DNA of 64,000 nt from Streptomyces sp. GQFP. Its GTDB lineage: Bacteria > Actinomycetota > Actinomycetes > Streptomycetales > Streptomycetaceae. The stretch's first letter is position 1. Each line of letters opens with the position of its first letter. This document shows, one piece after another, positions 29,531 through 38,584 of this stretch. The position numbers were made by a program, and so were the translations under genes. The notes beneath the pieces were generated by a model, which saw nothing but the letters and a program-made list of their open reading frames with translations, ran no database searches and was not told the origin of the DNA. The DNA lies in the NCBI RefSeq assembly GCF_021545335.1, contig NZ_CP089312.1, positions 5,580,001-5,644,000 on the forward strand, read 5' to 3'.

Positions 29531-29752
29531 TACGCGGACTGAAACTGGACGGTACCTGGGGATTCGGGTTCTGTCAGTAGTTGGGGGAGTGTGAACTTCG
29601 CGGAAATTTTCGAGGCGGAAACTCACGAGAAGTCAGAGCACCGCACTTTTGACCTCGCCTGAAGGCTTCCTGCTTCATCACGCACCGCCGACGCACACAG
29701 CTCTCATGAACTGCGCCCGAACGGTCTTACACGCGCTCCACAGGCGTTCCGG

Positions 29753-29767
29753 CCGACGGCCCGTCGG
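29753..29767 (-). other. Hairpin past the tnpB stop (possible transposon right end / omega RNA)
   Basis: CCGACGGCCCGTCGG is a nearly perfect palindrome 20 bases beyond the tnpB stop. IS200/IS605-type elements end in subterminal hairpins, and TnpB guide RNAs usually span the 3' end of tnpB and the right end. The boundary of this element is not determined. Confidence 0.35.
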
Positions 29768-29787
29768 TCCGTACCACCCAGCCGTCC

Positions 29788-31206
29788 CTAAGCGGCCAGC
29801 GAGCAGTCATCCTCCAGCTCCGACGCCCTGATCACAGCCGGAACCTTCTTCGAGGGCGGCAGCCCGGCCGCCACCAGCCAATACAGCCGTAGCCCCTCGT
29901 CCCGAAGGTTCACGGCGGCGTTCACATCCCGGTCATGGACGACTCCGCACTCGGCACACGTCCACTCCCGGACCGAGACATCCAACTTCGGCCCCTTGCT
30001 GTGACAGGCGGAACAACGCCGCGTCGAGGGGAAGAAACGGTCGACGATCACCAGCGTCCGGCCGTACCACTCGCACTTGTACCGCAGCTGCCGCACCAAC
30101 TCACCCCATCCGGCATCGAGGATCGCCTCGTTCAGCTTCGCCTTCCGCCGACGACCCTTGCCACGCGCCGGACGCATCAGATTCGCAACGGCCAGATCCT
30201 CCACCACGAGCACTTGGTTCTCGCGCACCAGGCGGGTCGTGAACTGGTCCAACAGATCCCTGCGTACGTCACTGATGAGCGCGTAGAGCCGCGCGATCCT
30301 CCGCCTCACCTTGTCGCGGTTGGCCGAACCTCTCACCTTCTGGTGCAGCTCCCGCTGCAACCGGGCCAACTTCTCCGCGTACCGCCTCAACAGCCGCGGA
30401 TGATCGACCTTCGTCCCGTCATCCAGGGTGACGAGCGACGCCAGCCCCAGATCCAGCCCCACAGCCTTCGGCGCCCGCGACCCCGGCACGAAGGCGGCGG
30501 GCAGAGGCGCAATTCGTTCCTCCACGAGCGTCGACACGAAGTAGCGCCCGGCCCGGTCCCGCGTCACCGACAAACGCACCGGCACGACCCCCACGGGCAG
30601 CGCCCGCGACCACCGAACATCCAACGGCCCTGACTGCTTCGCCAGCGTGATGAGCCCTGTGCCTGGCCGCTCCGGATCCTCCACCCACTTGAAACCGGTC
30701 CGGACGTAGGTCGCCGAATCCCGTGAACGCCCCTTCTTCTTCCGGCGCGGATACTTCCCGGAGCCCTTGAAGAACCGGCCATAAGCCTGATCGAGATGCC
30801 GCAACGACTGCTGAAGCACCGTCGACGACACCTCCCCCAGCCACGCCGTCTGTTCGGCCCGCTTCCACCCCGTCAACGCCCGGCACGACTCCGCGAAGCC
30901 CACATTCACCCGGTGCCGCTCCCAGGCCCCGGCCCGCAACGCCAGCCCCTCGTTGTAGACCCACCGACAGGCACCGAACGTCTTCGCCAGCTGCTCCGCC
31001 TGCTCGGCGGTCGGAGAGAAGCGGAAGCGGTACAAGCGGTGCTGCGTGTCCGGTTCTTTGACGTGTGCCTTCAGTGGAGTCGCCGCGCGCTTGTGGTGCT
31101 TGCGGCGGTCGCCGATCCCGAGGGCCTCGCGCTTGATGCGCTTGCCCTCTTCGCCCTTCACTGCTTCCGGCCTCGGCTTGCACGCCGACTCCCCCGGCTC
31201 CACCAT
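29788..31206 (-). CDS. tnpB: IS200/IS605-family TnpB RNA-guided nuclease
   Basis: 472 aa from ATG 31206 (MVEPGESACKPR), which has GGGAGGGG upstream. HTH-like N-terminal domain starts near residue 55 (HRLYRFRFSPTAEQAEQLAKTFGACRWVYN). The RuvC triad is intact: Asp252 (VGLDLGLAS), Glu336 (VVEDLAV), Asp427 (HDRDVNAAVN). The zinc finger is CSAC (398-401) and CAEC (417-420). No tnpA lies nearby, so it cannot move alone or relies on a relative elsewhere. The 50-residue basic N-terminal extension is unusual for the family. It lies 178 bases from tRNA-Thr, outside the att-bounded island. Confidence 0.9.
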   Translation of the reverse strand: MVEPGESACKPRPEAVKGEEGKRIKREALGIGDRRKHHKRAATPLKAHVKEPDTQHRLYRFRFSPTAEQAEQLAKTFGACRWVYNEGLALRAGAWERHRVNVGFAESCRALTGWKRAEQTAWLGEVSSTVLQQSLRHLDQAYGRFFKGSGKYPRRKKKGRSRDSATYVRTGFKWVEDPERPGTGLITLAKQSGPLDVRWSRALPVGVVPVRLSVTRDRAGRYFVSTLVEERIAPLPAAFVPGSRAPKAVGLDLGLASLVTLDDGTKVDHPRLLRRYAEKLARLQRELHQKVRGSANRDKVRRRIARLYALISDVRRDLLDQFTTRLVRENQVLVVEDLAVANLMRPARGKGRRRKAKLNEAILDAGWGELVRQLRYKCEWYGRTLVIVDRFFPSTRRCSACHSKGPKLDVSVREWTCAECGVVHDRDVNAAVNLRDEGLRLYWLVAAGLPPSKKVPAVIRASELEDDCSLAA

Positions 31207-31383
31207 GATCCCCTCCCTGACGATCCGATCTTCGGAACAGCACGTCAGAGCGATCAACGAACGGGTGCGCGGATGGTTACGTTTGGTTTTCGAGGCCGAG
31301 GCGAGCTGCGAACTCCGTGGCTCGGGGGATCGCGCTCTGTGTACAGTGGAGCCGCTTTCGCGTGCGGCTTTGTGGTGCGCGGT

Positions 31384-31457
31384 GCCTCCTTAGCTCAGAT
31401 GGCCAGAGCAGATCACTTGTAATGATCAGGTCGTCGGTTCGAATCCGACAGGGGGCT
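31384..31457 (+). tRNA. tRNA-Thr (anticodon TGT)
   Basis: GCCTCCT acceptor pairs with AGGGGGC (one G-U), D stem GCTC/GAGC, anticodon stem GATCA/TGATC with loop CTTGTAA, T arm GTCGG TTCGAAT CCGAC. No CCA is encoded. The anticodon TGT reads ACA and related threonine codons. The 3' half is repeated at 37636-37679, marking an integration site. Confidence 0.95.
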
Positions 31458-31463
31458 CTGTTG

Positions 31464-31499
31464 AAGGCCAGGTCACATATCCCGTGACCTGGCCTTTTC
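31464..31499 (+). terminator. Rho-independent terminator of tRNA-Thr
   Basis: AAGGCCAGGTCAC (31464-31476) and GTGACCTGGCCTT (31484-31496) form a 13-bp perfect stem followed by TTCT. Confidence 0.9.
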
Positions 31500-31638
31500 T
31501 GCCTTTCAGGGCATGACGCGTCACGCGGCGAAATCTGCCACGCAGCAGAGTCCTAACCCCAGCGCGCAGGGGCGACGACGCCCACCGACCAGGAGCACTA
31601 CCTTCACCGGTAGGTGGCAGAAGATCCGCTTTTCTGCG

Positions 31639-32217
31639 CTATGTAGCTTTTGCTTCGCTTGAACCGTCGAAGGCAGCAGCTGGTGTGAAGGGCAACAGAG
31701 CGGCCCGCCCCAGAACTTCGACCAGGTGCTCGGCCAGGAGGCCGATGTGGGGATCGGGCTGAACAAGGGCGGTCGCGTGGCCGCGTGCGGTGCGTTCTGC
31801 GGCCCATTCGTGGTCGAGGTTGGTGAAGTCGTCGTCGATCCAGATGGCGGGTGTGTCGCCGAGCCAGGTGTCGACGTGGTCGCGTTTCCAGAGGTAGCCG
31901 TTGGGGTGGCTGGTGGTGATCTGCGGGCGTGGGAGGTCGACGTGCGGTAGGTCCGGGAGGCCGAGGAGGGGGCCGATCAGCTTGGTGGCGTCGTGGCGCC
32001 AGCTGGTGCACCAGAGGGGAGTGACCAGGCCGGTCCGGATCACGTGCATGAGCAGGGGGCCGTGTGCGGGGTTGAGCCAGATGCTGACCGGGTTGTCGGC
32101 GCTCCGGTCAGCGGGCACGACGGTGTGCCGGGTGTGAGTCGCTGGGCTGCTGCCTTCCGTGTCGGGGAAGGGGATGAGGACGCCGTCGATGTCGAGGAGC
32201 AGGTAGGGCGGGCGCAT
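31639..32217 (-). CDS. HAD-superfamily protein (HAD_SAK_2-type, RNA-repair associated)
   Basis: 192 aa. Motif I LLLDIDGVLIPF contains the nucleophile Asp; motif II is likely WCTSWRH; motif III/IV appear as WKRDHVDTW and IWIDDDF. This short domain without a cap resembles the HAD domain called Swiss Army Knife in RNA-repair proteins (Pfam HAD_SAK_2). It could be a phosphatase or polynucleotide end-processing enzyme; the substrate is unknown. ATG 32217. It is the last gene of the island's minus-strand operon, 28 bases after the methyltransferase gene. Confidence 0.7.
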   Translation of the reverse strand: MRPPYLLLDIDGVLIPFPDTEGSSPATHTRHTVVPADRSADNPVSIWLNPAHGPLLMHVIRTGLVTPLWCTSWRHDATKLIGPLLGLPDLPHVDLPRPQITTSHPNGYLWKRDHVDTWLGDTPAIWIDDDFTNLDHEWAAERTARGHATALVQPDPHIGLLAEHLVEVLGRAALLPFTPAAAFDGSSEAKAT

Positions 32218-32245
32218 CGAGTCTCCCGAGGTAGCCGGGTGGAGG

Positions 32246-32938
32246 TCAGGGTTTGCGCGCGGTGATCAGCAGGGTGGTGGGCCGGCGCCCCTGGTGTGCG
32301 TCGTGGAACTCCCGGGTCGAGGTGAGCCGGAGGCCTGCTTGGGCGAGGTGTTTCTCCCAGAGGTTGGCGTCGAAGTCCCAGCGGGCGATGGGGAGTCGGG
32401 CTCCGTCGGGGAGGGTGACGTGGTCCCGGCTTGGACGGCCGCTGGTTGAGGGGGGTCTGCCGCCGCGTTGGGGGTGGGGGACGGAGAAGGCGAGGGTGCC
32501 GTCGGGCTTGAGGTGCTGGGCGACGGCTGGGAGCAGGAGTTCGGGGGCTACGAGGCCGATGGCTCCGAAGACGGAGTAGATGGCGTCGAAGTGTTCGTCG
32601 GAGGCCTGCAGGTAGTGCAGGGCGTGGCCGGCCGCGAAGGTGAGGTTGTTCAGTCGGCCGTAGTGCGAGCGGGCTCGGCGGACCTGGAGGCCGACGAGGT
32701 CGACGCCGGTGACCTGGGCGCCGTAGCGGGTGGCGAGGTGGGCGGCGTTGTGGCCGGGGCCGCAGCCGAGTTCCAGTAGTTGCTTGCGGTGCAGGTCCGG
32801 GGCGAGGATCTCGGCGCCGGGGCCGCTGCCCGGCCGGGTGGTCCATTCCATCCGTCCGGGTACGGTCAGTGCCTCGGCGGGGCTGGCCGTGGTGCGCTGG
32901 AGGGCGTGGACGTACCAGGGGGAGGCCTGGGCGGGCAC
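32246..32938 (-). CDS. SAM-dependent methyltransferase (UbiE/class I type)
   Basis: 230 aa. LLELGCGPGHNAAHLATRYG is motif I of class I methyltransferases and VTGVDLVGLQV fits motif II; FDAIYSVFGAIGLV and LKPDGTLAFSVPHPQ fit motifs IV and V. The substrate is unknown. GTG 32938 begins one base after the kinase-like stop, with GGAG 7 bases upstream, so the genes are coupled. Confidence 0.85.
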   Translation of the reverse strand: MPAQASPWYVHALQRTTASPAEALTVPGRMEWTTRPGSGPGAEILAPDLHRKQLLELGCGPGHNAAHLATRYGAQVTGVDLVGLQVRRARSHYGRLNNLTFAAGHALHYLQASDEHFDAIYSVFGAIGLVAPELLLPAVAQHLKPDGTLAFSVPHPQRGGRPPSTSGRPSRDHVTLPDGARLPIARWDFDANLWEKHLAQAGLRLTSTREFHDAHQGRRPTTLLITARKP

Positions 32939-32939
32939 G

Positions 32940-33851
32940 TCAGATCTCCAGGAGGTGGAGTACGTCGGTGAGGTGGCGGCGTACGGCCTTGATGTAGGCG
33001 GGGTCGGTGGCCGGGTCGTTGATCCAGCGGATGGACTGTTCCATGAACCACTCGACGGCCCACATGCGGTGCCAGCCCAGCGCCCACTTCTCGGCGGGGA
33101 GGCCGCCGCGTTCGGCGAGGGCGTCGGGGGTGCCGCCTTCGGTGACGTAGGTGTCCAGGAAGACGCGCAGGCGTACGGGGTCGGGGGTGTCGAGGGTGCC
33201 GTGCCAGCTGGCGGGGTCTAGCAGGCCGGGGCCGGTGAAGGCGCGGGCGAAGTCCAGTAGCCGCCAGCCGTGTTGGCCGATGTGGAGGCTGGTGGGGTGG
33301 AACTCGGAGTGCACCCAGCCGAAGGGAGCCGTCGTCGTACCGGTCGAGCGTGCTTCAGCTGCCTGGGCGATGCGGTCGAGGGCGTCCTCGATGTCGTCCG
33401 CGTTCTGCCACCGCTCGGCATTGCGGAGTCGGCCGAGATGCTCCAGCGCCCGGCTGGGAAGCCGGCGCAGCGCTTCCCGATCGAGGACCGGCAGTGCGGC
33501 GGCGATGCGGGTGCGGTGCAGGACGACGGCCGCGGTGGCGCCATCGAGGTCGTCGGCCTCGCGGGCGGCAGGGCCGAGGTCCTCCAGCAGCATCCCGAGC
33601 CAGCCGTCCACGACTGCGGAGGCGCGAACGGCAGGTACCGGGACACCGAGGGTTTGGGCCAGCCGGAGAGCCTGATCCTCGCTGTCGAAGGGCCTCTTGG
33701 CGTACTTGAAGATGGCGGTGGTGCCGTCGGTGAAGGTCAGGCGCTCGACGCCGGACATGGACCACACCCGCACCTCCTCACGCACTGCGTTGGACCGGCC
33801 GGCGATGGTCAGCAGGTTGTCCAGAAGATCGGTGTTGAGGCTCGTTTCCAT
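32940..33851 (-). CDS. Aminoglycoside-phosphotransferase-fold protein with altered catalytic motif
   Basis: 303 aa from ATG 33851 (METSLNTDLLDN), GGAG 6 bases upstream. The APH-like kinase layout is visible: IFKYAKRPFDSEDQAL (Lys49), GWLGMLLEDLG (hinge), then HSEFHPTSLH where the family has HxDxxxxN, and LLDFARA (Asp200). The catalytic Asp is Glu183 and the metal Asn is Ser188, so activity is doubtful; a pseudokinase or a different chemistry is possible. It forms a tight unit with the methyltransferase. Confidence 0.7.
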   Translation of the reverse strand: METSLNTDLLDNLLTIAGRSNAVREEVRVWSMSGVERLTFTDGTTAIFKYAKRPFDSEDQALRLAQTLGVPVPAVRASAVVDGWLGMLLEDLGPAAREADDLDGATAAVVLHRTRIAAALPVLDREALRRLPSRALEHLGRLRNAERWQNADDIEDALDRIAQAAEARSTGTTTAPFGWVHSEFHPTSLHIGQHGWRLLDFARAFTGPGLLDPASWHGTLDTPDPVRLRVFLDTYVTEGGTPDALAERGGLPAEKWALGWHRMWAVEWFMEQSIRWINDPATDPAYIKAVRRHLTDVLHLLEI

Positions 33852-33927
33852 CAAGGGCTCCAGTGCTGTTGAAGGCGTCCGGGGCGGGTGAGAGGTGCCG
33901 GCCCGCCCCGGAGCCGAGACGGTGGTG

Positions 33928-34677
33928 CTACGCGGCAGGGCTCACGCGGTGGGCGTAGACCTGCTCGATCCATCCGGCCTTGAATGCGGCGAGGTCGTCG
34001 CGGAAGACGGCCATCGAGGCACCGTAGGGCGCCACGACCCCACCGGTCTGGTCGGGTACGGACTGGCAGCCGTGCACGAGCCGTCCGCCGAGGGCGGCGT
34101 GGGCCTTGATGGACTCGATGCGGGGGTGTTCGTTGAACCAGCCGCCGTGGTAGACCTCGTCGAGCATGCCGCCCGTCTCGTCGGCCAGGTCGAAGACGAC
34201 GGAGGTGGCGGCGGGGAAGAACCAGCACGGGCCGACGTTGGAGATACGCCCGTCCAGTTCCACCTTGTTGAGCGCCATCAGCGTGGCCGCCTGGCGCAGC
34301 ATCCGCAGGTGGTCGGCGGTGATCTGCGGCAGGCCGAGGCCGACGAGGTGCTCGTCGCGGAAGAGGTAGGCGTATACCTCGTAGGCGGTGGCGAGGACGC
34401 GGGCGGCGTCCGAGGTGGACTTGGTGTGGGTCTTGATGAACTCCAGCGCGAGTTGCTCGACCGCGCTCTCGGTGGTCTCCTCCACGTCCAGGAGCTGGGA
34501 CCTGACCAGCTCCCAGTCGGCGACGAGCCAGGTGTTGGACTCGAAGCGGAAGAAGTACTGGGCCGGGTCGATGGTGATGCGCCGGCCGTCGACCTGGATG
34601 CCGGGCAGGCGGCTCCAGCGCTCGTCGAACGCCTCGGGCAGTACGGCCGTGATGGCCGCGGTGTGGATGGTGGTCAC
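33928..34677 (-). CDS. Protein of unknown family, first gene of the island operon
   Basis: 249 aa from GTG 34677 (MTTIHTAAITAVLPEAF), which has GGAGA 4 bases upstream. I recognise no family. It has no signal or membrane segment. Features worth noting: ITIDPAQYFFRFESNTWLVADW early, a helical middle (ESAVEQLALEFIKTHT), and a conserved-looking NKVELDGRISNVGPCWFFPAAT then YHGGWFNEHPRIESI. As the promoter-proximal gene it may define the system. Divergent from the TPR/HTH regulator. Confidence 0.6.
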   Translation of the reverse strand: MTTIHTAAITAVLPEAFDERWSRLPGIQVDGRRITIDPAQYFFRFESNTWLVADWELVRSQLLDVEETTESAVEQLALEFIKTHTKSTSDAARVLATAYEVYAYLFRDEHLVGLGLPQITADHLRMLRQAATLMALNKVELDGRISNVGPCWFFPAATSVVFDLADETGGMLDEVYHGGWFNEHPRIESIKAHAALGGRLVHGCQSVPDQTGGVVAPYGASMAVFRDDLAAFKAGWIEQVYAHRVSPAA

Positions 34678-34903
34678 CGTGTCTCCGTCTCTGATCGGCC
34701 GGGATCGGGCACAGGAATGCCCGAACCCGGTGTAGGCGTACGGAACTTCAGGGGCCGCCCGGCCGAAGGGGGGAGCCTGGTCACGGTGTCGGACCGGGGG
34801 CCGGGCGGCTGATGATTAGTGAACACTCCGTCACGCACAGTGGGTACGGTGAGAGGCAGTCGAAGCGGTATACGCGGTTTACAGCCCCGGATGGGAGGCG
34901 AGC

Positions 34904-36259
34904 GTGGCAGCACAGAAGGCCTCCAACTCCCGCCTGCGCGGCACCATCGAGGCAACCGGCTGCACGTACGAAGCCCTGGCAAAGGACGTCCGGCGTATCG
35001 CGGCCGAGAACGGCGAGATCCTCCAGACCAACAAGTCGGCCGTCTCCCACTGGGCCAACGGCACCCGCCAGCCCACCGGCCGGACCGGCCAGTACCTTGC
35101 CGAAGCACTTTCCCGCCGCACGGGCCGCATCATCACCCAGACCGAGATCGGCCTACGCGCGCCGGACGCTGAGGAGTCAGCCGAAGGGGATCCCGTCGTA
35201 GCTGCAACTGACCTCGGCCGGGCCGATGTTGAGCGTCGCCGCTTCCTCGCGGTGGCCGCCTTCACCACGGCCGGCGTCGCCATGCCGCTTGCCCACGACC
35301 ACGAGGCCACCGCCCGCATGCTCCGCGCCCGCACCGGCACGTCCGCGGTCGGAACGGACGACGTGGACGTCGTACGGCAGATCACTGCGGCGTTCAGCGC
35401 GGCAGACGAACGCCTCGGCGGAGGGCACGGACTGACCACGGTCACCGCATACCTCGCCGACACCGCCGCCCCCATGCTTAGAGGCCGCTTCCCGAACGAA
35501 GCCTTACGCCGTGGAGCCTTCGGCGCCGTGGCCGAACTCGCCTACCTGGCAGGCTGGAAGCACCACGACCTCGGCCACGAAGGCGCCGCCCAGCGCTACT
35601 ACCAGGTCGGCTACCAACTCGCCTGCGAAGCCGACCCGCACGGCCACGCCGCCTGGATGATGCGCGCCCTCGCCCACCAGGCCCTCAGCCTCAAACAGCC
35701 CCACCACTGCGTCGACCTCGTCGAAGGCGCCCTACGGCGGGGCCTGGGCCACGTCGACGGCCAGACCGAAGCCCTCCTCCACATCACCCATGCCCGCGCC
35801 TACGCTGCCACCGGCGAGAAGCCCGCAGCGGCCCGCGCCCTGCTCGCAGCCGAGAACGCCCTCCTACGCGACGACGACCCCCAGCCCAGCTACTCCCGCG
35901 TCAGCGGCCCTGCCGCCGGCACCGTGGCCAGCCACACCGCGCGCACGCTCACCGACCTCGCCGATCACGTCGGCACCGAGCAACAGCACCGCGATGCCCT
36001 GATCCGCTGGGATCGCGAGAAGTACAAGCGCGTGCACGCCCTGACGTATGCCGATCTCGGCGACAGCCTTGCCGCTCAGGCCCGCGCTGACGAGGCTGTC
36101 GCTGCTTGGTCCCAGGCCCTGACCCTCATGGAGGGCATGACCTCCGACCGCACCCGCAAGGCCATCACCTCGCTCCGATCAACGGTCGCCGTCTACCAGC
36201 GCCGCAAGGTGCGGGGAGCCTCCGAACTCGCCCGCCGCGCACGGGAAGCGCTGGCTTAG
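34904..36259 (+). CDS. HTH/TPR-repeat transcriptional regulator
   Basis: 451 aa from GTG 34904 with GGGAGG upstream. N-terminal helix-turn-helix (about 5-70; KSAVSHWANGTRQPTGRTGQYLAEALS) of the kind used by streptomycete XRE/TPR regulators, then a short hydrophobic segment (RRRFLAVAAFTTAGVAM, about 109-125, probably buried and not a Tat signal), then helical TPR-like repeats to the end (ALAHQALSLKQPHHCVDLVEGAL, ARAYAATGEKPAAARALLAAENAL). Such proteins sense peptides or proteins through the TPRs. It faces the four-gene operon across a 226-base spacer and is followed by the Nudix gene. Confidence 0.8.
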   Translation: MAAQKASNSRLRGTIEATGCTYEALAKDVRRIAAENGEILQTNKSAVSHWANGTRQPTGRTGQYLAEALSRRTGRIITQTEIGLRAPDAEESAEGDPVVAATDLGRADVERRRFLAVAAFTTAGVAMPLAHDHEATARMLRARTGTSAVGTDDVDVVRQITAAFSAADERLGGGHGLTTVTAYLADTAAPMLRGRFPNEALRRGAFGAVAELAYLAGWKHHDLGHEGAAQRYYQVGYQLACEADPHGHAAWMMRALAHQALSLKQPHHCVDLVEGALRRGLGHVDGQTEALLHITHARAYAATGEKPAAARALLAAENALLRDDDPQPSYSRVSGPAAGTVASHTARTLTDLADHVGTEQQHRDALIRWDREKYKRVHALTYADLGDSLAAQARADEAVAAWSQALTLMEGMTSDRTRKAITSLRSTVAVYQRRKVRGASELARRAREALA

Positions 36260-36295
36260 GCTGACAACCAACCGGCCGATGAAGGGACACCAGCC

Positions 36296-36796
36296 GTGGC
36301 TCAGCGGACAACCGACGACCAGCCCAAAGCCCTACCGCCCGCCCTCGAATCCATGACCCTGCTGGTCGCCGCCGTCATCGTCCACGATCAGGCCACCAAC
36401 CGCGTCGTTCTCCTCCAGCGCAGCAAGAACGCCAAGTTCGCCCAGGGCATGTGGGATCTTCCCGTTGGCAAGAGCGAACCCGGCGAGCCTGTCACCGAGA
36501 CTGCGGTGCGGGAGCTGTACGAGGAGACCGGCCTGACGGTGAAACCGGGGTCCCTGAAGGTTGCTCACATCATTCACGGCGCCTGGGGCGTCGAAGCCCC
36601 CAACGGCTTCCTCACCGTCGTCTTCGCTGCCCACGAATGGACCGGCGAACCCGAAAACCGTGAACCCCACAAGCACGCTCAGGTCTGCTGGGTTGACGCT
36701 GACACCATTCCCGAAAACTTCGTAGACACTACCGCCAGTGCTCTCCGCGACTACCTGACGGACGGCCCTCAGGTCTCGCTTGACGGTTGGCGCTAA
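36296..36796 (+). CDS. Nudix hydrolase
   Basis: 166 aa. The Nudix box is complete: G-KSEPG-E-PVTETAV-REL-Y-EE-T-G-L, matching GX5EX7REUXEEXGU. Members hydrolyse nucleoside diphosphates linked to another moiety (dNTPs, ADP-ribose, NADH, cap structures). GTG 36296 is 36 bases after the regulator with GAAGGGA 8 bases upstream, so both are probably one transcript. Next to HAD and methyltransferase genes it suggests a nucleotide-handling module. Confidence 0.85.
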   Translation: MAQRTTDDQPKALPPALESMTLLVAAVIVHDQATNRVVLLQRSKNAKFAQGMWDLPVGKSEPGEPVTETAVRELYEETGLTVKPGSLKVAHIIHGAWGVEAPNGFLTVVFAAHEWTGEPENREPHKHAQVCWVDADTIPENFVDTTASALRDYLTDGPQVSLDGWR

Positions 36797-37121
36797 CACC
36801 ACCTTCTACTGGCCGCATGACGTCAGAGGGCCTGTGGATAGTGTTGTGCCGAGTCCATGCCTGAAGGAGCGCCGCTGAATGTCGGACCTGCTTGTCGCTG
36901 CGGCAATGTCGGAAGCGGTGGAGAACATCTCAACTGTACGGCCTCTCGGATCGCGGGGTTCCCGCAACGAGGTGGCAGACAGTGGCGCCAGTGAGTTGAC
37001 GCCCACAGCTGCGGCAGTACTGGCTGCCATTCGCCTGGTGGAAGGCCCGAGCTTCTGCCGTCGGCCTCGCCGGTCGTTGGCTGGACGTTGAGGATGCCTT
37101 GCAGGCAACCCACCAGCTGAG
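36797..37121 (+). other. Spacer with a doubtful 70-aa ORF
   Basis: Between the Nudix gene and the restriction-enzyme remnant. An ORF at 36879-37091 has an AAGGAG site but no recognisable domain and poor codon bias, so I do not call it. The stretch may contain decayed sequence of the lost restriction-modification genes. Confidence 0.35.
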
Positions 37122-37485
37122 ATGCCAGTAGATCCCCCCTCGGCGACTCGTGGAGTTCCCTCAATCAAAATTGATGTCAAGAATGTTCTGTCTGATGTGA
37201 TAATCGCAGACATTGGCGATAATCCGGTCCGATTCTGGATTATTGAGGCTGTGGCGACAGGTGGTGTCGTGATGAACCAGCGCCGGAAGGCGCTACTCGA
37301 ATGGGCTGCGCAACAGAATATTAAGGCGCGCGTGTTCCTTCTTGACGGCCTTCGAGTCACGAAATTCGGCGCCAGCTCGAAAGCGACTCAAGGATCTTGC
37401 TACCGGGACATGGGCCTGGTTCGCCGACGAACCACACCACGAACTCGCTTGGTACAAGGTCAAGCTGGACGCTGACGATATGTGA
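37122..37485 (+). pseudogene. Truncated and frameshifted BsuBI/PstI-type restriction endonuclease
   Basis: Only the C-terminal catalytic domain remains. The first frame reads DVIIADIGDNPVRFWIIEAVATGGVV and LLEWAAQQNI, the BsuBI/PstI family hallmark (D...ExxxxxG). Near 37337-37345 the frame breaks after VFLL; the next frame continues as TAFESR, KRLKDLATGTWAWFADEP and HHELAWYKV, ending at the TGA 37485. The N-terminus and the partner methyltransferase are missing. Codon use is lower in GC than neighbours. Non-functional. Confidence 0.8.
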
Positions 37486-37635
37486 GTTACACCATGTTGT
37501 TGGCGGCCCGGCGTAGTTAACCTTGATCGAATATCCTGGGTGTTAGATGTCGGACGCATTCGAGGCTAGGTTTCCGGCCGAGGGAAATGGGATATGAGGG
37601 CATGACCTAACACCATTTGGAATGATCATGCAGGG

Positions 37636-37679
37636 ACTTGTAATGCGTAGGTCGTCGGTTCGAATCCGACGGGGGGCTC
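37636..37679 (+). repeat. attR: duplicate of the tRNA-Thr 3' half
   Basis: Repeats 31415-31458 with only 4 differences; AGGTCGTCGGTTCGAATCCG and the next two bases are identical in both. It has no 5' tRNA half, so it is not a tRNA gene; it marks the right end of the integrated element. Confidence 0.85.
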
Positions 37680-37684
37680 CAGTA

Positions 37685-38584
37685 CTACGAATTCCGCAGC
37701 CGCCGCCCGATCTCCAGCCCCGTCTCCTCCACCGGATCCCCGTCCTCGATGTTCCACAGGGCGTTCTGGAGGACCCGGGCCAGCGTCCACGCGCGTGCCC
37801 GTTCCCGGTCGAGGCTCAGTACCGCCGTCATGGCGTCGAAGCGCCAGAGGATGTCGTTGGCGTCGAAGCGGTTGTTGAGGGCTGGGTAGAGGTCGAAGCC
37901 GGGGTCTCCTGTTAGGGGTTTTGGGTCGATGGCCAGCCAGGGGGCTCGGGTGGCGGCCAGGACGTTCTCGAAGTGGAGGTCCCAGTGGAGGAGGCGGTCG
38001 CCGGGGAGCGTGGCCACTTCGCGTAGGGCTGCCGCGCAGTCCGCGATCAGGTTCCGGGATGTCCGGTCCGGGATCTGGGGGAGTGCCTGTGGTGTTCGGG
38101 CCAGCATGCGTTCCGCGATGTCGCCCAGGCGGCGGATGCCCGGTGGGGCCGGGACCGATGTGAGGTGGGACAGCAGGGTCGCGATGACCAGGGTGGCCTC
38201 GTGGGCGTCCGGGACCGTGGACAGCATTCGGGTGTGGTCCAGGCGTTCCAGGAGCATCGTGCCCGTGGTGGGGTCGTGGTTCAGGAGGCGTACCGCGTGG
38301 TTGCCGTTCCAGTGGTGGAGGGCCGGTGCCTCGCCTTCGCTCTCCTCGTCCAGGAGTTGGAGTTTGAGGGCGGCCGGGGTGTTGTCGGTGGTGACGACCG
38401 GGAGGACCAGGGCTGTTACGCCGTGCATTGAGGGGCCGTCCACGCGTAGGTTCCAGCGGTCCAGGAAGTCGGCCGTGCGGGTGGGGAGTTCGGTGATGAA
38501 GGCGCGGCCCGCCTCCCCGTTGTACTTGAGCTGTGTGGCGGCCAGTTCGGCGGGGATGTGGATGGGGGTGGGGGTGGGGGTCAC
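37685..38584 (-). CDS. APH(6)/hydroxyurea-kinase family aminoglycoside phosphotransferase-like protein
   Basis: 299 aa with full kinase motifs: LHWDLHFENVLA (HxDxxxxN) and the metal Asp in LAIDPKPLTGD. The family includes streptomycin 6-phosphotransferases and the hydroxyurea phosphotransferase, which inactivate the antibiotic by phosphorylation. The actual substrate needs testing. GTG 38584 follows a -10-like TAAAGT by a few bases with no ribosome site, so the message is probably leaderless. It starts immediately outside the integrated element. Confidence 0.8.
   Translation of the reverse strand: MTPTPTPIHIPAELAATQLKYNGEAGRAFITELPTRTADFLDRWNLRVDGPSMHGVTALVLPVVTTDNTPAALKLQLLDEESEGEAPALHHWNGNHAVRLLNHDPTTGTMLLERLDHTRMLSTVPDAHEATLVIATLLSHLTSVPAPPGIRRLGDIAERMLARTPQALPQIPDRTSRNLIADCAAALREVATLPGDRLLHWDLHFENVLAATRAPWLAIDPKPLTGDPGFDLYPALNNRFDANDILWRFDAMTAVLSLDRERARAWTLARVLQNALWNIEDGDPVEETGLEIGRRLRNS

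Follow-up and report, generated by a model that had tools for sequence, protein, structure and literature searches.

A tnpB gene at a fixed chromosomal site

The window analysed in this study is a stretch of 64,000 nucleotides (nt) of a Streptomyces-type chromosome (G000:C1:5580001-5644000; Streptomyces sp. GQFP), and our subject is a tnpB gene that lies in it between msiK and a divergent tRNA-Thr(UGU) gene (TGT at the DNA level) and is followed directly by a putative omegaRNA with a guide (Table 1). We propose, with a probability of roughly 0.62, that this TnpB would cut non-self tRNA-Thr(UGU) genes and that the recoded tRNA gene linked to it would provide immunity, so that a natural weapon would seem to come with its own antidote. 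Loci and genomes are cited by our own handles (such as L012 or G195) where they have to be told apart.

Table 1. Features of the tnpB locus, in coordinates of the window.
Feature	Position	Strand	Remarks
tnpB, 472 amino acids	29788-31206	(-)	ATG at 31206; N-terminal extension 1-56; RuvC D252/E336/D427; zinc finger C398/C401/C417/C420
omegaRNA scaffold with GAAGCAGGAA, end GGTCAA	29649-29788	(-)	directly 3' of tnpB; conservation and covariation; includes the hairpin 29753-29767
Guide AAGTGCGGTGCTCTGAC	29632-29648	(-)	antisense to the D-stem/anticodon stem of tRNA-Thr(UGU)
tRNA-Thr(TGT), the only one found in G000	31384-31458	(+)	divergent from tnpB; recoded anticodon stem GATCA 31411-31415/TGATC 31423-31427; proposed immune copy
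Own-tRNA counterpart of the guide target, TTAC then AAGTGATCTGCTCTGGC	31402-31418	(-)	4 mismatches/17 nt and 3/14 to the own guide
msiK with msiK leader RNA (RF01747, 29465-29524)	28324-29524	(-)	fixed neighbour on the side opposite the tRNA
Conserved tnpB leader/promoter block (GCGTAACCATCCGCGCACCCGTTCGTTGATCGC...)	31219-31281	(-)	alignment of 59 loci; putative function

An earlier note on this DNA, made from its letters alone, had described a TnpB beginning at 29753, a figure that joins a hairpin to the open reading frame, which itself ends at 29788. The encoded protein carries the Pfam domains OrfB_IS605, Cas12f1-like_TNB and HTH_OrfB_IS605, matches the NCBIfam model guided_TnpB (4.1e-91) and finds ISDra2 TnpB in a sequence search of the PDB (8bf8, 2.5e-60). 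An AlphaFold model built on 26 aligned sequences (mean predicted local distance difference test score 82.5) has as its top Foldseek match the solved TnpB-omegaRNA-DNA complex 8h1j (1.1e-27), and the further TnpB complexes 8iaz (1.0e-26) and 8exa (1.9e-24) also match. The earlier claim of an intact RuvC triad and zinc finger withstood comparison with 51 distinct full-length orthologs, in which D252 and E336 are invariant, D427 is kept in 50 (the sole exception, L064, having an alignment gap at this site) and the four cysteines are kept in 51, 51, 51 and 50, respectively. The fold with RuvC D/E/D and zinc finger that marks RNA-guided TnpB (OMEGA) nucleases is therefore present, and conservation and predicted structure support a nuclease-competent protein.

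The extra N-terminus that had been noted proved to be a conserved, family-specific extension: R23, K25, R26, E27, L29, R34 and K36 are each found in 45-48 of the 51 orthologs, residues 18-52 have a pooled ratio of nonsynonymous to synonymous substitution rates (dN/dS) of 0.40, and the extension is not present in the open frames of the mobile cousins of about 400 amino acids that we examined. The absence of a tnpA partner was likewise borne out among the open reading frames examined around tnpB, and a genome-wide search for Y1_Tnp returned a single match, a fragment (profile positions 28-71 in a frame of 90 amino acids) about 4.4 megabases away.

The window's genome holds one close tnpB copy, the next best having 32% identity. 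Among 295 Streptomyces genomes, 27 hold a copy of 67-100% identity, at one place per genome, and the next identity class reaches at most about 54% and is often multicopy, with two partial matches (76% and 69%) as exceptions. All 27 copies, which were not preselected for their neighbours, are flanked by tRNA-Thr(TGT) and msiK. We assembled 67 loci from this set and a second collection, chosen for having both tnpB and msiK; the tRNA gene lies opposite msiK at 66 of them, and the contig of the remaining one, L060, ends short there. Three cousins of about 50% identity (L030-L032) have neither gene adjoining, and a family-level survey found matches at E<=1e-130 in 4 of 150 genomes, all in the window's genus. 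Since there is one copy in the window's genome, the same site at 66 of 67 loci and only a Y1_Tnp fragment, the locus lacks the marks of a mobile IS200/IS605 or IS607 element (varying sites, ends and a transposase, although a genome-wide search for the IS607 serine transposase was not made).

Median dN/dS of tnpB is 0.23 over 1081 pairs and 0.20 over the 185 close pairs, with 0.18 for msiK, so that tnpB is under purifying selection (dN/dS about 0.2). Together these comparisons support an immobilised locus retained across many Streptomyces over a stray transposon copy, and of the earlier suggestion of a lone, co-opted TnpB the co-option is supported, while the lone transposon copy gives way to the fixed locus. 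Nine broken or partial tnpB copies were left out of the conservation and dN/dS sets but count wherever tRNAs and guides are tallied. Seven loci were dropped because their proteins were duplicates, and no count includes L079, where a tnpB of this class, likewise broken, has the usual neighbours. For comparison we hand-picked 40 non-carrier genomes (20 without any match at 1e-20 and 20 with distant matches only), which yielded 39 stretches, 35 of them with tRNA-Thr(TGT) and among these L144 with a tnpB relic.

The omegaRNA scaffold and its tRNA-directed guide

The tnpB stop is followed immediately by some 120 nt with a core that is more than 90% conserved in 49 loci. An alignment of 56 loci gives six helices with 27 pairs, in which 95.9% of the cells pair and compensatory changes occur at 13 of the 27 pairs; all five covariation measures exceed every one of 500 shuffles (0/500) and all slid controls. 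The hairpin seen earlier, CCGACGGGCCGTCGG, is helix 1 of this scaffold, which is closed by GCAGG of GAAGCAGGAA pairing with CCTGT. The earlier placing of a guide RNA at the hairpin was thus right as to location, and covariation supports a TnpB omegaRNA there, but the hairpin is one helix of the scaffold and not the whole element. The alignment across genomes that had been suggested as a check also delivered the right end: among 23 stretches with mobile cousins (one place fetched twice), the element ends in GTCAA followed by differing flank in 21, the exceptions being L259 with GCCAA and L032 with none seen. Because mobile cousins end in this way, the start of the guide after TCAA is fixed independently of the locus under study, and the structured 3' RNA with a guide directly after it agrees with what is expected of OMEGA systems.

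The guide follows GGTCAA, is about 15-17 nt long and has a target adjoining TTAC. Its family consensus, AAGTGCGTTGCTCTGCC, was derived from 50 distinct guide strings detected by a search rule; positions 1-3 and 10-14 are nearly fixed and positions 4-9 are variable. In reverse complement it reads as tRNA: GGCAGAGC of the D-stem is followed by A26, by an anticodon stem that varies and by the anticodon-loop bases CTT. TTAC corresponds to the antisense bases that precede the target in every tRNA-Thr(UGU) target listed, and from this context we infer that it serves as the target-adjacent motif (TAM), the second item of the suggested check. IS608 uses TTAC. The earlier observation that tnpB sits beside a tRNA gene holds, but the tRNA is the apparent object of the guide and not an incidental neighbour.

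By the motifs searched, the guide block is missing in 38 of the 39 loci without intact tnpB, the exception being L144 with its relic. We had considered the block as an msiK promoter and rejected this reading, since all 39 of these loci keep the msiK leader although the block is missing upstream of msiK in 38.

In the 66 loci scanned we found one guide in 47, two in 11, three in 3, four in 1 and none in 4. After removal of seven duplicates, arrays of two to four guides occur in 14 of 59 loci and the guides total 74; the array unit is often about 36 base pairs (bp), a GG(T/C)CAA end plus a guide. Guide tests left out L015, L061 and L076 (no recognisable guide), L073 (no scaffold) and L057 (rearranged); L040, whose guide is one base short, was excluded from the 53-locus self test below and went undetected by the array rule, and L060 was left out of tests that require the own tRNA.

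The arrays of L068, L054, L035 and L260 hold three to four tRNA-Thr guides each, of which several proximal ones fit recoded alleles of other loci and some distal ones fit the wild-type; by their order it is as if guides had been added beside the scaffold over time. At L044 one guide begins with GAG instead of AAG and would fit tRNA-Thr with a CGT anticodon. Short tandem guide units, here two to four in 14 of 59 loci, also invite comparison with type V-F CRISPR-Cas, and Cas12f-type PADLOC models match the protein, as is expected for a TnpB.

Local recoding of the linked tRNA-Thr(UGU) gene

The tRNA gene facing the guide is highly variable at tnpB loci, with 49 distinct 17-nt target alleles in 59 loci (including the nine with broken or partial tnpB) versus 11 in 35 non-carriers; subsampling the 59 loci to 35 leaves a mean of 31.2 alleles and a minimum of 27 in 2000 draws. 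Non-carrier stems mostly read AACGCA or (G/A)CCGCT. Entropy of the anticodon stem is 1.60/1.75 bits at tnpB loci against 0.74/0.79 in non-carriers, whereas the T-arm (0.12 against 0.09) and the acceptor (0.21 against 0.15) hardly differ, so that variation is concentrated in the region facing the guide and its pairing partner. Most of the stems remain paired, with 5/5 pairs in 32, 4 in 17 and 3 in 10 of the 59 loci. In carriers the tRNA-Thr(CGT) gene is not recoded and has an AACGCA...TGCGT stem in 28 of 28. A tRNA-Thr(TGT) pattern run over the 295 genomes matched 259, at one place each except for G195 with two, and gave no match in 36 (single-place reading of the table by eye). Taken together, these comparisons show at the level of sequence that the linked tRNA-Thr(UGU) gene is recoded locally at tnpB loci.

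Two observations stand beside this pattern. The loci L139, L141, L143, L147 and L148 have no tnpB, yet their tRNA-Thr(UGU) stems are recoded (GGCTGT, AGCTGT), and they are possibly former carriers. L041 has a wild-type anticodon stem, and its guide is an exact 14-nt fit to the GATC allele of the window; we read this as probable protection by retargeting, not by recoding.

Guides avoid the resident tRNA and fit alleles of other loci

The first guide of a locus has 3-7 mismatches over 14 nt to the locus's own tRNA in all 53 loci tested. None has two mismatches or fewer, against 6.4 expected by tRNA shuffling (P=0.0004, this and all other permutation tests ignoring relatedness among loci and being inflated by it), and when each locus is given a random non-carrier allele, 22.2 loci fall within this limit, with 0/10000 draws as low as observed. 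With array guides included, 1 of 69 has exactly two mismatches to the own tRNA and none has fewer, where 8.9 are expected (P=0.0002). As in toxin-antidote and homing systems, the proposed nuclease target is thus altered in the carrier, here as a mismatch to the guide.

Guides do fit tRNA genes elsewhere. At 45 of the 53 loci they come within one mismatch of the tRNA of some other tnpB locus, and 38 of the 53 tnpB-locus tRNAs are matched this closely by the guide of another locus, which yields 13 reciprocal pairs. L012, L034 and L041 have guides that match the window's tRNA, and the window's guide in turn matches the tRNAs of L012, L029, L041 and L058. Of 28 unusual guides that lie at least two mismatches from both the phage and the non-carrier panel, 16 are within one mismatch of the recoded allele of another locus (7.7 expected, 0/3000 permutations) and 3 are exact on such an allele (0.7 expected, P=0.03).

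On the mechanism that we propose, this immobilised, nuclease-intact TnpB would act as a self/non-self discriminator for a single gene, tRNA-Thr(UGU). Its presumably expressed omegaRNA would use one or several guides to read tRNA-Thr(UGU) genes on their antisense strand, starting at TTAC in the anticodon loop and running into the D-stem, and the nuclease would cut DNA bearing a foreign allele, such as phage-borne copies or alleles of other Streptomyces arriving by recombination or conjugation. The own tRNA gene, divergent and about 180 bp away, would be spared by changes that mismatch the resident guide and are mostly compensated in the anticodon stem; because it is the linked tRNA that carries them, weapon and antidote would stay linked. 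A more far-reaching version, which we hold at somewhat below even odds, is a natural cleave-and-rescue system in which a changeable guide array destroys other tRNA-Thr(UGU) alleles, and an arms race among haplotypes and tRNA-carrying phages makes the anticodon stem of an essential tRNA change faster than the adjacent nuclease gene.

The same matching between loci bears on whether the locus is an allele drive (cleave-and-rescue or intronless homing), in which the allele of a recipient or rival would be cut, repair or selection would install tnpB with the resistant tRNA, and rival haplotypes would target each other. Adjacency of nuclease and resistant allele at 66 of 67 loci agrees with this, as do the 13 reciprocal pairs (L001/L041 among them), a target allele that differs in 13 of 14 rows of nearest tnpB relatives (some pairs appearing twice), and L041, where a wild-type stem goes with a guide for the window's allele. 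Against it, only 27 of 295 genomes are carriers, and by synonymous divergence (dS) just 2 of 1081 pairs show less divergence for tnpB than for msiK, the two values correlating with rho 0.53; this comparison, made between species, gives no sign of recent between-species sweeps. We consider such a drive unlikely, and for recent lateral spread between species, which we had also considered, the dS comparison gave no sign.

Since the guide complements not just the gene but also the tRNA, a non-cutting regulator would be conceivable, a TnpB-omegaRNA complex that occupies tRNA genes or attaches to tRNAs and so adjusts the expression of tRNA-Thr or msiK, and the TldR proteins offer a precedent of a TnpB relative acting as an RNA-guided transcription factor (PMC13418256). 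Given that nearly all full-length copies retain triad and zinc finger and that guides avoid the resident UGU copy, this strikes us as quite improbable. Patchy distribution and broken copies would in turn suit an old IS605-type insertion turned fossil, its tRNA-like guide a leftover target and the tRNA variation otherwise caused; we find this very improbable, because purifying selection, covariation, arrays and above-permutation matching to other alleles are unexpected of a relic.

Phage-borne tRNA-Thr alleles as possible targets

Many of the large Streptomyces phages have a tRNA-Thr(UGU) gene: a search with a phage tRNA-Thr(TGT) gene found 110 records of Streptomyces phages, with some double entries, and we examined 18 named phages with 8 distinct 17-nt alleles. 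The allele of phage pSt2308, after TTAC, equals the consensus guide AAGTGCGTTGCTCTGCC at 17/17 positions. Over 17 nt, 30 of the 74 guides come within one mismatch of this panel (column-permuted mean 15.7, 0/2000), and 10 of 74 come this close to the non-carrier chromosomes (P=0.25). In IMG/VR, TTAC plus 14 nt of common guides occurs in at least 120 contigs, and 116-119 of 121 sites have surroundings that resemble a tRNA; the window's guide with TTAC (one position free) is found in 5 contigs and the consensus/L023 pattern in 14, each phage-type D-loop pattern was found in a single contig, and the guides of L019/L027 had no match. Phage tRNAs have been proposed to counter tRNA-cutting defences (PMC10264068), which would make such genes useful targets.

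These data raise the question of whether the system is purely a phage defence, with guides selected against the tRNA-Thr(UGU) of large tRNA-carrying Streptomyces phages and host recoding as avoidance of autoimmunity. Besides the abundance of phage records and the pSt2308 match, this would account for TGCC at guide positions 14-17 in 46 of 74 guides, which occurs in 3 of 8 phage alleles and 0 of 35 non-carrier chromosomes, and for the nearer fit over 17 nt of phage alleles for 50 guides as compared with chromosomal alleles for 11 (13 ties). The match depends on length, however: over 14 nt, 39 of 74 guides are within one mismatch of the phage panel and 40 of 74 of the non-carriers, and the two are nearer equally often (16 versus 16), so that the phage case rests on positions 15-17. 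Those positions may not track targets at all, since the guide of L005 retains TGCC though its stem matches a chromosomal TGGC allele. Exact 17-nt phage matches are also not above permutation (5 versus 2.8, P=0.13), the panel offers only its 8 alleles, the L019/L027 guides found nothing in IMG/VR, and for 16 of the 28 unusual guides a fit is found in the recoded tRNA of another tnpB locus. On balance we regard an exclusive role against phages as possible but doubtful. We had at one stage read the guides as fitting only chromosomal wild-type alleles and dropped this for the better phage fit over 17 nt, a revision that the tie over 14 nt and the unusual guides have since softened.

Points that weigh against discrimination by cutting

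In addition to the dependence of the phage match on length, its exact matches and the relatedness ignored by our permutations, several points speak against a TnpB that cuts non-self tRNA-Thr(UGU) genes. Expression and cleavage of the TnpB system are predictions from sequence, and the guide RNA could pair with the tRNA instead of DNA. The left end of the mobile cousins examined is TCAT, once TTAT, which resembles but differs from TTAC; no guide could be recognised at 4 of 59 loci, some ten copies of tnpB are incomplete or disrupted, and self-avoidance at one mismatch or fewer is weak (0 versus 2.83 expected, P=0.04). The cell's own, unrecoded tRNA-Thr(CGT) gene shares TTAC, and 29 of 74 guides mismatch it at just 1-2 positions out of 14, so that for many guides it is nearer than the own UGU gene, although position 1 differs for 73 of 74. 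Counted by eye, two further TTAC sites in the window's genome fit the guide with 2 mismatches in 13 nt and are thus closer to it than the own tRNA is. With such near matches a tolerant nuclease would be suicidal; for the model to hold, the sequence next to the TAM (a seed) has to be read strictly.

Relation to known systems

With IS200/IS605 TnpB-omegaRNA of the ISDra2 type the locus shares fold, catalytic residues, a structured 3' scaffold and a guide after ...TCAA; it differs in being immobile at a fixed site without adjoining TnpA, in its family-specific N-terminal extension, in a guide that is tRNA-Thr antisense and not random flank, and in the tandem guides of some loci. TldR proteins have lost the RuvC catalytic residues, and as the triad is intact in the Streptomyces protein it does not belong with them; its guides also avoid the resident target gene. 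What it has in common with TldR, described as TnpB-related RNA-guided transcription factors regulating flagellin genes, is the exaptation of a TnpB family member with a conserved guide (PMC13418256).

By analogy, the logic of the locus appears nearest to free-standing homing endonucleases, insertion-sequence (IS) gene drive in plasmids and engineered Cleave-and-Rescue. SegB of phage T4 promotes inheritance of its own tRNA region (PMC2988022, PMC13096335), and like it the system would be a free-standing nuclease that lies next to tRNA genes and gives the tRNA region it belongs to an advantage over a relative's; SegB is phage-borne and reads its site by protein, whereas the Streptomyces system is chromosomal and RNA-guided, with changeable guides. 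The IS gene drive also involves TnpB cutting DNA that lacks the element (PMC11870625), but the protection predicted here lies in a recoded target gene and not in an insertion occupying the site. Cleave-and-Rescue pairs a programmed nuclease against an essential gene with a linked resistant copy (PMC7951863); that system is engineered, while the Streptomyces one is natural and its cutting predicted. There is a likeness to restriction-modification as well, with protection by sequence change in the Streptomyces pair. Our search of the open-access literature, judged from listings, found no report of TnpB together with a recoded tRNA, nor of any natural RNA-guided system that has such a tRNA as antidote and tandem guides.

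Surroundings of the locus

An apparent integrative element (31459-37679) lies at the 3' end of the tRNA-Thr(TGT) gene and encodes, among others, a HAD_SAK_2 RNA-repair-type protein, a methyltransferase and a NUDIX protein. Its attachment (att)-like repeat copy, ACTTGTAATGCGTAGGTCGTCGGTTCGAATCCGACGGGGGGCTC, ends at 37679 (two analyses place the copy at 37658-37679 and at 37642-37679) and reads TGCGT in the stem, as the wild type does and the recoded resident gene does not; its position leaves tnpB outside the element, as the earlier note had stated. An element integrated at this tRNA might suggest that guides defend against integrative elements using tRNA-Thr(UGU) as attB, by targeting their attP; since the likeness of the repeat copy to the tRNA begins only at about position 31, which leaves out most of the guide target (in this one element), we give this hardly any credence.

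The tnpB leader block shows a GTAAC...CGTT spacing that we take to resemble promoters of extracytoplasmic function sigma factors. Just outside the att repeat lies a gene of the aminoglycoside/hydroxyurea kinase family (37685-38584, (-); APH_6_hur, 2.8e-37), and farther off an S-adenosylmethionine (SAM) riboswitch (RF00162, 60681-60827, (+), 76.4 bits).

Significance

If TnpB does cut non-self tRNA-Thr(UGU) genes, the locus would be a natural RNA-guided self/non-self system that works by tRNA recoding, on a principle that is otherwise encountered in engineered gene drives. Such a system would offer a new reason for the divergent tRNAs of phages and for one hypervariable tRNA in the genus, and would be a source of small TnpBs whose native targets are conserved and whose omegaRNAs carry several guides. 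The role of exapted, catalytically intact TnpBs would thereby become directly testable.

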